From NCBI GenBank assembly GCA_017387565.1, contig JAFOEY010000033.1, forward strand, positions 1 through 64,000: DNA of 64,000 nucleotides, given 5' to 3'. This DNA is from Lachnospiraceae bacterium. GTDB taxonomy: Bacteria; Bacillota; Clostridia; Lachnospirales; Lachnospiraceae. The notes under the pieces are model-generated. The model was not told the origin of the DNA, did not search any database, and saw only the letters and a list, made by a program, of their open reading frames with translations. Position 1 is the stretch's first letter, and each line of letters opens with the position of its first letter. The position numbers were made by a program, and so were the translations under genes. This document shows positions 34,997 to 61,425 of this stretch, piece by piece.

Positions 34997-35128
34997 CTTC
35001 ATCACTTCCTGCAAATATTCTTTCAATAAAAGATATCTAAAGATGCATTCAGATGTATTCAAATCAAATGAAAGATATATTTGATTACTAATTTTTTGAA
35101 TAAATTATAAGAAAGAATAATAAGAAAG

Positions 35129-35450: not shown

Positions 35451-35480
35451 TTGACGTATTTTGACCTTATAACCTATAAT
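35451..35480 (+). promoter_or_regulatory. Promoter of the split pfl operon
   Basis: TTGACG (35451-35456), 18-base spacer, TATAAT (35475-35480). No obvious FNR or Rex site is recognisable. Confidence 0.65.
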
Positions 35481-35565: not shown

Positions 35566-37605
35566 ATGAGACCCGAATGGACAGATTTTGTAACTGGCAA
35601 ATGGGACAAAGAAGTCAATGTCCGTGACTTCATCCAGAGAAACTACACACCTTATGAAGGTGACGAAGCATTCTTAGCTGGCCCTACTCAAAACACAAAG
35701 GACTTATGGAATCAGGTACTTGATTTACAGAAACAGGAGCGTGCAGCTGGCGGTGTTCTTGATATGGATACCAAAGTTGTTTCTACCATTACTTCTCATG
35801 GTCCCGGTTACCTTGATAAGAGCAAAGAAACAATCGTTGGTTTCCAGACTGACAAACCTTTCAAACGTTCTTTACAGCCTTACGGCGGTATCCGTATGGC
35901 AGAGAAAGCTTGCGCAGACAACGGCTACACAGTAGATCCTGAAATCTCAGAGTTTTTCTCTACACACAGAAAAACACACAACGCAGGTGTATTTGATGCA
36001 TATACTCCCGAAATGAGAGCTTGCCGTACAGCTCATATCATCACAGGTCTTCCGGATGCATACGGACGTGGACGTATCATCGGCGACTACAGACGTGTTG
36101 CATTATATGGTATTGACAGACTGATCGAAGACAAAGAAGATCAGAAAGCTTCTACAGGACGTGTTATGACAGATGACGTTATCCGTCTTCGTGAAGAAAT
36201 TTCAGAGCAGATTACTGCATTAAAGATGATGAAACAGATGGCAGCTTCTTACGGATGTGATATCTCTAAACCTGCTGCTAACGTACAGGAAGCTATCCAG
36301 TGGACATACTTCGGATACTTATGTGCAGTTAAAGAACAGAACGGTGCAGCTATGTCTCTTGGACGTACATCTACATTCCTTGATGTTTACGCAGAAAGAG
36401 ATTTAAAGAACGGTACATTCACAGAAGAACAGATTCAGGAATTCGTTGATCACTTCATCATGAAATTACGTTGCGTAAAATTCGCTCGTACACCTGAATA
36501 CAACCAGATTTTTGCCGGTGACCCTGTATGGGTAACAGAATCACTTGGTGGTGTTGGTATCGACGGACGTCCGTTAGTAACAAAGATGTCTTTCCGCTAC
36601 TTAAATACATTAAACAACTTAGGTGCATCTCCTGAACCGAACTTAACAGTTCTTTGGTCAACAAGATTACCGGAAGGCTGGAAGAAATTCTGTGCTAAGA
36701 TGTCTATCAAGACTTCTTCAATCCAGTACGAAAACGATGACTTAATGAGAGTAACACATGGTGATGACTACGGTATCGCTTGCTGTGTATCTTCCATGAG
36801 AATTGGTAAAGAAATGCAGTTCTTCGGCGCACGTGCTAACGTTGCAAAATGTTTGTTATACGCATTAAACGGTGGTATCGACGAAGTAACCAAGAAACAG
36901 GTTGGACCGAAATATCGTCCTGTTACCGGTGATGTTCTTGATTATGATGACGTAATGGAAAAATTCACTGACATGCTTGAATGGCAGGCAGAGGTTTATG
37001 TTAATACTCTGAATATCATCCACTACATGCATGATAAATACTGCTATGAAAGAGCTCAGATGGCATTACATGACAGAGATGTAAGACGTTACTTCGCAAC
37101 AGGTGTTGCCGGTCTTTCAATCGTTGCTGACTCTTTGTCAGCTATCAAATATGCAAAAGTTGAAGTAGTTCGTGATGAAGATGGAATCATCGTTGACTTC
37201 AAGACAACCGGTGACTTCCCCAAATATGGTAATGATGATGACCGTGTTGACTCTATCGCACAGGAAATCGTACACAAATTCATGACAGCTATCAGAAGAC
37301 ATCATGTATACAGAGATGGTTTCCCGACAACATCTATCTTAACCATTACATCTAACGTAACATACGGTAAAGCTACAGGTAACACTCCTGATGGACGTAG
37401 AAAAGGACAGCCTTTCGCTCCCGGTGCTAACCCGATGCACGGCCGTGATACTCATGGTGCAGTTGCTTCCTTATCTTCTGTATCTAAACTTCCTTTCAAC
37501 GATGCACAGGATGGTATTTCCAATACATTTACCATTATCCCCGGTGCTCTTGGAAAAGATGATCAGGTATTCGCAGGAGATATCGAAATCGACTTAAACA
37601 AATAA
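35566..37605 (+). CDS. pflB: Pyruvate formate-lyase catalytic core lacking the glycyl-radical domain
   Basis: 679 residues against about 760 for the E. coli enzyme. All core features are present: pyruvate/CoA-binding sequences, [19 protein letters not shown] with adjacent active-site Cys406-Cys407 (E. coli Cys418/419), and the late segment [18 protein letters not shown]. After about fourteen more residues ([12 protein letters not shown]) the protein stops, just where the radical domain would begin in E. coli. That domain is encoded separately at 37889. Start 35566 is chosen for AGGAGG and homology (MRPEWTDF); an upstream in-frame ATG is not. Codon use is strongly biased, indicating high expression. 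Confidence 0.95.
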
Positions 37606-37623
37606 TGAAAAAGGGTGATTGTT

Positions 37624-37824
37624 ATGGACGAAAATGCAATGATTGATGATTTAATCCGTCAGCTTGACGGTGGAATGTCAAAAGAAGTCGGACATGTAAA
37701 TGTGGATGTTAATTCTCTTACAGCCGGCAAAAATGTAGAAACCATGGGATGTGCGGACTGCTCTTCCAATCCTCTTGCATGCAGCGTTCCGACACTTCAC
37801 GAAGGTTTGGATGGCGAAGAATAG
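37624..37824 (+). CDS. Small Cys-rich protein resembling a truncated glycyl-radical domain
   Basis: 66 residues. IDDLIRQLDGGMSKEVGHVN aligns with [20 protein letters not shown] of the radical protein two genes on, including GHVNVDVN versus HHLNVNVL. After this the sequence is replaced by a Cys-rich tail (METMGCADCSSNPLACSVPT), with cysteines at a C-x2-C and further spacing. No RVSGYAV loop exists. I infer a duplicated, diverged radical domain, perhaps a metal- or disulfide-binding accessory. Start 37624 (AAGGGTGA upstream) is preferred to a GTG nine bases earlier. It begins 18 bases after pflB. Confidence 0.75.
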   Translation: MDENAMIDDLIRQLDGGMSKEVGHVNVDVNSLTAGKNVETMGCADCSSNPLACSVPTLHEGLDGEE

Positions 37825-37888
37825 GCCGTTACAAACTTTCCAAACAAAGTAACATTACAAATTATGAATTAATAGGAGGTAATTAATT

Positions 37889-38134
37889 ATGGCAGACGCT
37901 AGTACAGCTCAAGTAGACAACTTAGTAAACTTATTAGATGGTTATGCAACAAAAGGCGGACATCATTTAAATGTTAACGTATTAAACAGAGATACATTAT
38001 TAGATGCACAGAAAAATCCTGAGAACTATCCTCAGTTAACAATCCGTGTATCAGGATATGCTGTTAACTTCATCAAATTAACACCTGAACAGCAGGCAGA
38101 CGTTATCAGCAGAACATTCCATGAATCAATCTAA
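37889..38134 (+). CDS. Stand-alone glycyl-radical subunit of pyruvate formate-lyase
   Basis: 81 residues. The sequence is the C-terminal domain of [35 protein letters not shown] (radical Gly56), and ISRTFHESI at the end. In ordinary PFL this is residues about 685-760 with Gly734. Here it is a separate protein with its own strong AGGAGG site and 64-base spacer. It resembles the rescue protein YfiD/GrcA, but it would be the only source of the radical because the core gene lacks one. It must dock into the core and be charged by PflA. Confidence 0.93.
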
Positions 38135-38156
38135 TTGATACGTTTATGAATGACGA

Positions 38157-38194
38157 CAACCCTTTGGTTTTTTCCAAAGGGTTGTTTTATTTTA
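38157..38194 (+). terminator. Terminator of the split pfl operon
   Basis: CAACCCTTTGG pairs exactly with CCAAAGGGTTG around a T-rich loop and is followed by a T-run. It separates the three pfl genes from pflA, suggesting pflA is expressed at a lower, separate level. Confidence 0.9.
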
Positions 38195-38338
38195 ATAGGA
38201 ATGTGATATAATGATAAACAGGGGTTATAAATCAGAAATTATTTCTGCTTGCAGGAAAAACGATTTTTATTTTAATTGTGAGAGTTGCTGTAAGCAACGA
38301 AGCAATTCGTACAAGAAATGAAGAAAAGAGGAACGAAT

Positions 38339-39103
38339 ATGAGCGGTAGAATTCATTCATTAGAAAGCTTCGGTACCGTAGACGGTCCCGGCACACGTTT
38401 TGTAGTCTTTGTACAGGGATGTCCCATGCGATGTGCGTATTGCCACAATCCGGATACCTGGTCCATGACAGGCGGTACCATAATGGAGGCTTCCGAGATT
38501 ATTGAGCAATATGAAAGAAATAAGCCATTTTATCAAAATGGAGGAGGTCTTACTGTAACCGGTGGTGAACCTCTGATGCAGATTGACTTTTTAATCGAGC
38601 TTTTTACGCTTTGCAAAGAAAAAGGCATCCATACCTGCATCGACACCTCAGGAATTGCTTATAAGCCTGCCAATACAGAATACAATGCAAAGCTGGATCA
38701 TTTAATGACCATGACAGATCTGGTTATGTTGGATATCAAACATATTGATCCTGAAAAGCATAAAGAATTGACAAAGCAGCCCAATGACGGCATTCTGGCC
38801 TTTGCGGCATACTTAAACGAAAAAAAGGTTGATATGTGGATCAGACACGTTGTTGTTCCGGGAATCACCGATGATGAAGAATATCTTTATAAACTGGGAT
38901 ATTTCATCGGACAATTTACCAACTTAAAGGCTTTGGATGTATTGCCTTACCATGATATGGCAAAAAAGAAATACAAAGAACTGAATATTGATTATGTCTT
39001 AAAAGATGTAAAACCGATGGATAAAAATCTCATACCAGAGAAAAAACAATTTATCTTGAATGGTATCAAAAAACGACGGGAAGAAATGGGAATCTCGAAA
39101 TAA
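38339..39103 (+). CDS. pflA: Pyruvate formate-lyase activating enzyme
   Basis: 254 residues. Radical SAM CxxxCxxC site CPMRCAYC followed by HNPDTW, GGLTVTGGEPLMQIDFL and LVMLDIKHIDPEKHKEL identify PflA. It abstracts hydrogen from the PFL glycine using S-adenosylmethionine and a reduced [4Fe-4S] cluster. Here its target must be the separate 81-residue protein bound to the core. Start 38339 has AGAGGA upstream; a longer reading adds seven codons. A ferredoxin gene 108 bases downstream could be the electron donor. Confidence 0.95.
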   Translation: MSGRIHSLESFGTVDGPGTRFVVFVQGCPMRCAYCHNPDTWSMTGGTIMEASEIIEQYERNKPFYQNGGGLTVTGGEPLMQIDFLIELFTLCKEKGIHTCIDTSGIAYKPANTEYNAKLDHLMTMTDLVMLDIKHIDPEKHKELTKQPNDGILAFAAYLNEKKVDMWIRHVVVPGITDDEEYLYKLGYFIGQFTNLKALDVLPYHDMAKKKYKELNIDYVLKDVKPMDKNLIPEKKQFILNGIKKRREEMGISK

Positions 39104-61162: not shown

Positions 61163-61425
61163 CCGTGCGTCCGGCTTCGAATCGCATCCCTATGCGTTAC
61201 CTCTACAGTTAACTCAACCCAGGCACCCTCACGGCACATGGAAGATTCCCCTTAGTGCTGCTGTATTCCTACCCTGACACGGTTCGAAGATTTCCATTGC
61301 GTAAGACCCAGATATCAACGCCACTTATAGAGGGCAGCCATAAAAACGCTAAACCCTCGGCCGGACATCACCCCTGCTAAAGCGGATTGCAGGTACAAGG
61401 CACCGCTACTGCCCCGGCTGCACGG
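61163..61425 (-). ncRNA. ffs: Signal recognition particle RNA (large, bacterial type)
   Basis: On the minus strand the ends pair (CCGTGC with GCACGG). The apical S-domain shows GTCAGG-GTA-GGAA-TAC-AGCAGC, i.e. a GGAA tetraloop above the conserved CAGG/AGCAGC internal loop that binds Ffh (61258-61290 region). Length of about 263 bases indicates the Clostridia/Bacillus form with an Alu domain. Position next to tadA is typical. A promoter (TTGACT at 61457-61462, 17 bases, TATACT at 61434-61439) lies directly upstream; a T-rich tail follows the 3' end. Confidence 0.92.

Follow-up and report, generated by a model that had tools for sequence, protein, structure and literature searches.

Core and glycyl-radical domain of pyruvate formate-lyase are encoded by separate genes in a Lachnospiraceae bacterium, with a candidate third element between them

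In a gut Lachnospiraceae bacterium (GenBank assembly GCA_017387565.1), the core and the glycyl-radical domain (GRD) of pyruvate formate-lyase (PFL), a central enzyme of anaerobic fermentation that oxygen destroys at its glycine radical, are separate proteins, and a small third gene, named MID, lies between the two genes that encode them (Table 1). All three genes are found in the window, i.e., the whole stretch of 64,000 nucleotides that was analysed (contig JAFOEY010000033.1, positions 1 to 64,000). An earlier, sequence-only reading had described an enzyme made of two parts; the separate core and GRD were borne out, but the third element, which is MID or a cysteine-bearing tail of the core, had been overlooked. 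We regard as probable the whole three-part explanation, in which the split is natural, the GRD is activated in trans by PflA, and MID or the tail aids this arrangement.

Table 1. Features of the split PFL locus and one RNA gene elsewhere in the window.
Feature	Positions	Strand	Basis
Sigma-70-like promoter, TTGACG-18-TATAAT	35451..35480	+	consensus match only, 11 of 12 positions
PFL core, 679 aa, Cys406-Cys407, without glycyl-radical domain	35566..37605	+	TIGR01255 and PF02901
MID, 66 aa, N-terminal half GRD-like, C-terminal motif GCADCSSNPLACSVPTLHEGLD	37624..37824	+	conserved open frame
GRD, 81 aa, RVSGYAV with Gly56	37889..38134	+	PF01228 positions 50-106, E 6.6e-23; NF038360
Intrinsic terminator-like stem-loop after the GRD gene	38155..38186	+	13 pairs, 6 G-C, then T-rich tail
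pflA, PFL-activating radical SAM enzyme	38318..39103	+	TIGR02493, 303.8 bits (cut-off 231.75)
Bacterial large signal recognition particle RNA	61163..61425	-	RF01854, 191.6 bits

The core alone scored 1105.6 bits against TIGR01255 (cut-off 994.2; model positions 2-665 of 744) and matched PF02901 with an E-value of 2.6e-219. Its alignment with E. coli PflB stops at PflB residue 681, and the chain itself stops at about position 665 of TIGR01255, the glycyl-radical domain being a separate gene. The TIGR01255 match and the sequence confirmed the claim of a 679-residue PFL that carries Cys406-Cys407 and lacks RVSGYAV. This cysteine pair aligns with Cys418-419 of PflB, and Arg170, Trp322, Phe420, and Arg423, mapped by hand on the alignment, fall on Arg176, Trp333, Phe432, and Arg435, which we take to be substrate or catalytic residues of the E. 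coli enzyme. The dN/dS ratio was 0.03-0.11 for the core, and also for the GRD, in seven comparisons. Both genes are under strong constraint, and these values contradict the idea of the core as a decaying gene.

The 81-residue protein also proved to be as described, with RVSGYAV and a standard PFL ending (RTFHESI): it aligns with residues 682-758 of PflB, which places Gly56 on Gly734. Against NF038360 (GrcA3), the GRD scored 157.2 bits as a protein and 156.1 bits in the genome search, for a cut-off of 158. The score against TIGR04365 (GrcA/YfiD) was 100.9 bits versus a cut-off of 170, and only model positions 65-126 were matched; the N-terminal disordered half of the YfiD type is absent.

The core and the GRD very likely assemble in trans and, after activation by PflA, carry out ordinary PFL chemistry. 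The core would supply the active-site cysteines and the substrate sites, and the loop of the GRD would insert into the core, take the glycyl radical (Gly56) from PflA, and pass it to Cys406/Cys407. Hypothetically, a GRD damaged by oxygen could be exchanged for a fresh one while the core is kept. In E. coli, formate is made in vivo by PflB G734A together with GrcA (PMC12338860). In another study, a truncated PFL combined with YfiD reached wild-type activity once activated, and YfiD bound oxygen-cleaved PFL with a KD of 14 uM (PMC8683613). When E. coli PFL was cut to residue 695, YfiD binding could no longer be detected and activation was 32-fold lower than for PFL cut at 733/734; the authors proposed that residues 696-733 are a recognition element (PMC8683613). 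The natural split core resembles the E. coli PFL shortened to residue 695.

The core and GRD genes look like one transcript, with pflA beyond the terminator, because a promoter-like site precedes them and a terminator-like stem stands directly after them. Between positions 35000 and 39700, 12 promoter-like sites were found versus a mean of 14.5 in shuffled sequences, the site listed in Table 1 being the best, and terminator-like sites numbered 7 versus 2.6 in shuffles. The pflA gene, which starts at 38318 or, more likely, at 38339, lies behind the stem. Of the 122 loci long enough to tell, 101 had a PflA-like motif on the strand of the core, within the stretch that runs from the core to 2.5 kb past the GRD. 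The ribosome-site matches were AGGAGG for the core, GGTGA for MID, and AGGAGGT for the GRD; those of the core and GRD, together with the promoter- and terminator-like sites that flank the pair, agree with the claim of one operon with separate ribosome sites.

Codon adaptation, computed with the core and rplI as reference, was 0.814 for the GRD, 0.625 for MID, and 0.512 for pflA; eight other genes of the window ranged from 0.414 to 0.680, a range that includes MID. Among the genes compared, the GRD had the codon usage closest to that of the core, and it was nearer to the core than MID in 104 of 109 loci, some genomes being counted twice. The ribosome-site match was also longer for the GRD (mean 6.81 versus 5.40 for MID in 105 loci, again with some genomes counted twice). 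These sequence signals suggest abundant production of the GRD and lower production of MID, and core-like codon usage fits a GRD that is a subunit made in quantity. Core, MID, and GRD shared one reading frame in 12 named loci out of about 70 with both genes, and about 8 were expected at random; we do not infer read-through from this.

The split arrangement was found in many relatives. The family sample comprised 150 genomes from 149 genera, each at least 90% complete, and a PFL over the cut-off was found in 116 of them: 65 had a fused and 54 a split PFL, three of these having both (G078, G109, and G119) and 62 being fused-only, according to the table read by hand. In all 53 split loci retrieved from the family (52 over the cut-off and G057), the GRD was downstream of the core on the same strand. 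The split was also found in 16 of 84 PFL-bearing genomes of the order sample (12 outside the family), in 9 of 103 of the class sample (7 outside the family), and in 1 of 62 of the phylum sample, which was that of the window itself; these three samples overlap, and the split genomes outside the family number 19, in eight other families. Split cores persist across Clostridia, with their predicted catalytic residues intact. With an E-value limit of 1e-9, MID was detected in 79 of 393 genomes of the order, irrespective of PFL type. A search with the core for named relatives gave at least 590 loci, of which 80 were kept; these were mostly Lachnospiraceae and included Hungatella hathewayi WAL-18680 and Lachnospiraceae bacterium 28-4 (L155). 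Seventy-four of the 80 were parsed (L153, L174, L181, L183, L186, and L187 were left out), and 71 had an adjacent MID; two others end with their contig inside the core (L160 and L179), and in L176 MID follows the GRD. The GRD itself was detected in 71 of the 74.

MID was present in all eight split genomes of the genus, in which nine genomes were searched, and its dN/dS was 0.09-0.23 in four of seven comparisons, dS being saturated in the other three. The MID of the window, taken alone, matched no Pfam family and no GrcA model, and a search of the PDB with its sequence gave no useful match. When 30 MIDs were scanned with a limit of E 1, GrcA3 was matched by 23 of them (best E 8.6e-7) and Pfam Gly_radical by two (best E 0.01). 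Comparison of a profile of 112 MIDs with one of 133 GRDs in global mode gave a probability of 70.4% (E 5e-6). Among 33,979 six-frame stretches from the loci and the window, the MID profile matched 148 MIDs, 174 GRDs, and one core tail below E 1e-3, although these matches are not independent since many loci overlap. The weak matches to the profile in family genomes, at about positions 3-32, were stand-alone or fused GRDs wherever coordinates were compared. Against the PDB, the profile found no PFL, YfiD, or GRD, the best match being unrelated (E 0.72). The putative kinship of MID and GRD is therefore a family-level one, which rests on family profiles and on the GRDs of the clade to which MID belongs. 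By chained alignments, the GRD-like part of MID corresponds approximately to PflB 682-711, which takes in strand beta10 and the first part of the 696-733 stretch; the radical loop is absent.

Most MIDs end in a cysteine motif, with the spacing CX2CX6C in the majority, and two of the 35 family MIDs (G017 and G027) end before the ACxVPT motif. Some split genomes (G090:C7:8462-8599, G102:C40:89381-89539, and a few more) have further small frames, distant from the PFL locus, that match MID in part, hinting at MID paralogues. Three of the 30 MIDs weakly matched TIGR04118, a family of radical-SAM-modified Cys-rich RiPPs (best E 0.0099); these matches are probably due to chance, and they raise the question of whether MID itself is modified.

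We infer a docking role because MID contains a segment related to the first part of the 696-733 recognition element: the GRD-like half of MID would most likely dock at the GRD site and help to load, hold, or gate the GRD, and the cysteines of MID or of the tail would be metal ligands or lie close to the radical site. That MID or the cysteine tail makes the trans arrangement work in this way is a proposal for which we see an even chance. MID may instead be a place-holder that occupies the vacant GRD site, acting as a plug or inhibitor that protects the core or blocks activation when no intact GRD is available. MID does resemble the N-terminal half of the GRD without the radical loop, and its ribosome sites and codon bias, weaker than those of the GRD, suggest fewer copies; this explanation is nevertheless hard to reconcile with tails that have no GRD-like half, and we consider it somewhat unlikely.

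Most cores without a neighbouring MID have such a tail with cysteines. Among the 53 split loci of the family, 32 had an adjacent MID, 19 had a core tail with at least two cysteines, and two had neither; both of the latter, L088 (G117) and L100 (G009), keep an unlinked MID elsewhere in the genome. Counted by genome from tables read by hand, all 54 split family genomes over the cut-off have either MID (35 genomes) or a core tail with two or more cysteines (19 genomes), a count that adds the window and G008 and leaves out G057. MID matches that span 50 or more profile positions, with E no higher than 3.5e-7, were obtained in 37 genomes, namely these 35 and two in which contig ends truncate the PFL (G057 and G024); the 62 fused-only family genomes yielded no MID. 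Outside the family, the 19 split loci comprised 12 with an adjacent MID, 5 with a cysteine tail, one with MID after the GRD (L226, G397), and one with neither (L231, G427), so that MID or a cysteine tail was present in 18 of the 19 split genomes of other families.

Many tails carry CX4-6C. Fourteen tails with a C-x-[IVST]-P stretch aligned with the end of MID (probability 96.6%, E 6.8e-10), and 12 of 25 cysteine tails beat all 1250 shuffled tails against the MID profile, the other 13 failing to do so. A common origin of tail and MID is well supported by these alignments for about half of the tails, and is suggested for the remaining ones from cysteine content only. The GRD-like half cannot be a need of every split enzyme, because tail-type cores keep only the cysteine part.

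MID and the tails could also be metal- or Fe-S-binding accessory parts, like the BSS-beta and BSS-gamma subunits of benzylsuccinate synthase, which would tune radical transfer and not dock the GRD. We judge this unlikely. Their cysteines are indeed paired or tripled, as in the spacings given above (CX2CX6C in most MIDs and CX4-6C in many tails), but many tails have two cysteines only, too few for a cluster held by one chain, and the spacing varies. The family matches were at chance level, with one of the 30 MIDs matching LipS2 (E 0.057) besides the three RiPP matches, and in the family sample MID accompanies split PFLs only.

A quick tree of the cores (LG+G4, midpoint root) was built from 122 of 131 rows, L026-L029, L201, L202, L204, L205, and L227 being skipped. 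In this tree, 73 of the 74 split rows fell in one group (SH-aLRT 99), with four fused rows nested inside, and L231 (G427) was a long branch outside it. Four changes between fused and split are needed, three of them forced by starred branches, and two returns to one chain are the best interpretation of the nested fused rows. In one of them (L040), the core, a cysteine stretch (TCGCEEVTC), and the GRD form one protein, and in the three others (L035, L036, and L042) a plain linker has no cysteine stretch. No MID was found in any of the four re-fused genomes, in which the only matches fell on the fused GRD (E 0.00153 in G086 and 2.9e-4 in G153). These MID-less re-fusions fit, without proving, the idea that the cysteine element is needed when the GRD acts in trans. 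In L231, the core and GRD frames overlap, and this locus may be an independent split.

Several observations speak against the three-part explanation. L231 is split with neither element, and three of the re-fused rows have no cysteine stretch while L040 keeps it. The MID of the window has no GrcA match, 13 of 25 tails are not above shuffles, and two family MIDs are shortened, which slightly lowers our confidence in the full mechanism. We propose only tentatively that, in nearly half of the PFL-bearing family genomes sampled, PFL may be a three-part enzyme: a body would be joined by a radical module that is made in quantity and can be exchanged, and loading and exchange would be governed by a relative of this module that lacks the radical, or by a core tail with its cysteines.

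The GRD had been claimed to be the only radical source for the core, and the whole genome (2,905,470 bases in 69 contigs, 99.54% complete, 1.72% contamination) agrees with this claim: the small chain is the sole PFL-type radical source found. TIGR01255 matched only the core and the GRD, and PF01228 matched three places, the core end (model positions 1-51), the GRD (49-106), and an ORF on contig 15. By its sequence, its motif, and a neighbouring radical SAM activase gene, all judged by eye, this ORF is an anaerobic ribonucleotide reductase, NrdD; its C-terminal motif is RRTCGYIG and not RVSGYAV, and it was rejected as a source of a PFL-type radical domain. A full-length pflB elsewhere was looked for across this 99.5% complete genome, and none was found.

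It is very improbable that the small chain is only a spare part of the GrcA type, next to a PFL gene that is damaged or no longer works. The name of its NCBIfam family, "autonomous glycyl radical cofactor GrcA3", and a further unlinked GRD copy in three of the nine genomes of the genus would suit such a role, but no full-length PFL to be repaired was found in the genome, and the core is strongly constrained and conserved in many genera. The three unlinked copies, L109 (G001:C32), L110 (G007:C21), and L111 (G003:C54), had no PFL core in the stretch fetched, and their neighbours resemble regulators and an ABC-type ATPase. A PF01228 search found no such extra copy in the genome of the window.

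A sequencing or assembly error that splits one continuous frame, of practically negligible probability, is ruled out because the split recurs in other genomes (8 of 9 in the genus, and 54 of the 116 PFL-bearing genomes of the family), with separate ribosome sites and a conserved gene between the two frames. In the ninth genome of the genus, G006 (L004, 89% complete), the PFL is fused and belongs to a distant clade; no split PFL was found there, a pattern that would fit a replacement of the split enzyme. An open frame of 874 aa in G001:C37 was considered as a fusion of the parts and was rejected, since stops separate the core and GRD frames in the sequence.

PFL, GrcA, and the GrcA3 model are already known, and MID is the least known part; no account of a split PFL or of MID was found in searches of open-licence papers from PubMed Central. 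A core that ends at about residue 681 and a bare GRD are the normal state in many relatives, together with a GRD-related element or a cysteine tail. The large gene alone is thus unlikely to reconstitute PFL from such bacteria, and the naturally separate parts allow direct tests of how the GRD docks, how PflA activates it, and whether exchange can repair the enzyme. If the three-part reading is true, PFL would work like an enzyme with a renewable protein cofactor.

The solved sequences closest to the core are two PDB chains named "Formate acetyltransferase", 38lb_A (739 residues, 1141.3 bits) and 38la_A (687 residues, 1122.6 bits), compared here by sequence alone; 38lb continues past the junction with ECDMCEM. 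A solved structure of a split or cut core may thus already exist in these entries. A PDB search with the GRD did not find either chain, none of its GRD matches was a stand-alone chain that fits these entries, and no solved core-GRD complex was found. A 59-residue piece of 38lb was found in none of 391 genomes at 1e-22, a threshold too strict for such a short query.

Known relatives of the other parts differ from those described here. BSS-beta and BSS-gamma accompany an enzyme that has its own radical domain. Like them, MID is small and bears cysteines, and it matched no model of BSS-type subunits in the Pfam and NCBIfam scans. The BSS subunits are small [4Fe-4S] proteins that occur together with a glycyl radical enzyme (PMC12590467). 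GrcA/YfiD (TIGR04365; PDB 6owr), GrcA2, and GrcA3 (NF038360) are stand-alone glycyl-radical domains, as is the GRD of the window. YfiD has a disordered half (residues 1-60) and repairs oxygen-cleaved full-length PFL (PMC8683613), whereas the GRD has no such half and, as the sole PFL-type radical source found, is not a spare. PflB of E. coli (TIGR01255; PDB 1h16) shares with the enzyme of the window its core, the Cys-Cys pair, a GRD with RVSGYAV, and the activase PflA. PflB is, however, one chain, and here the match to it ends at residue 681, the GRD is a separate gene, and the MID gene is extra.
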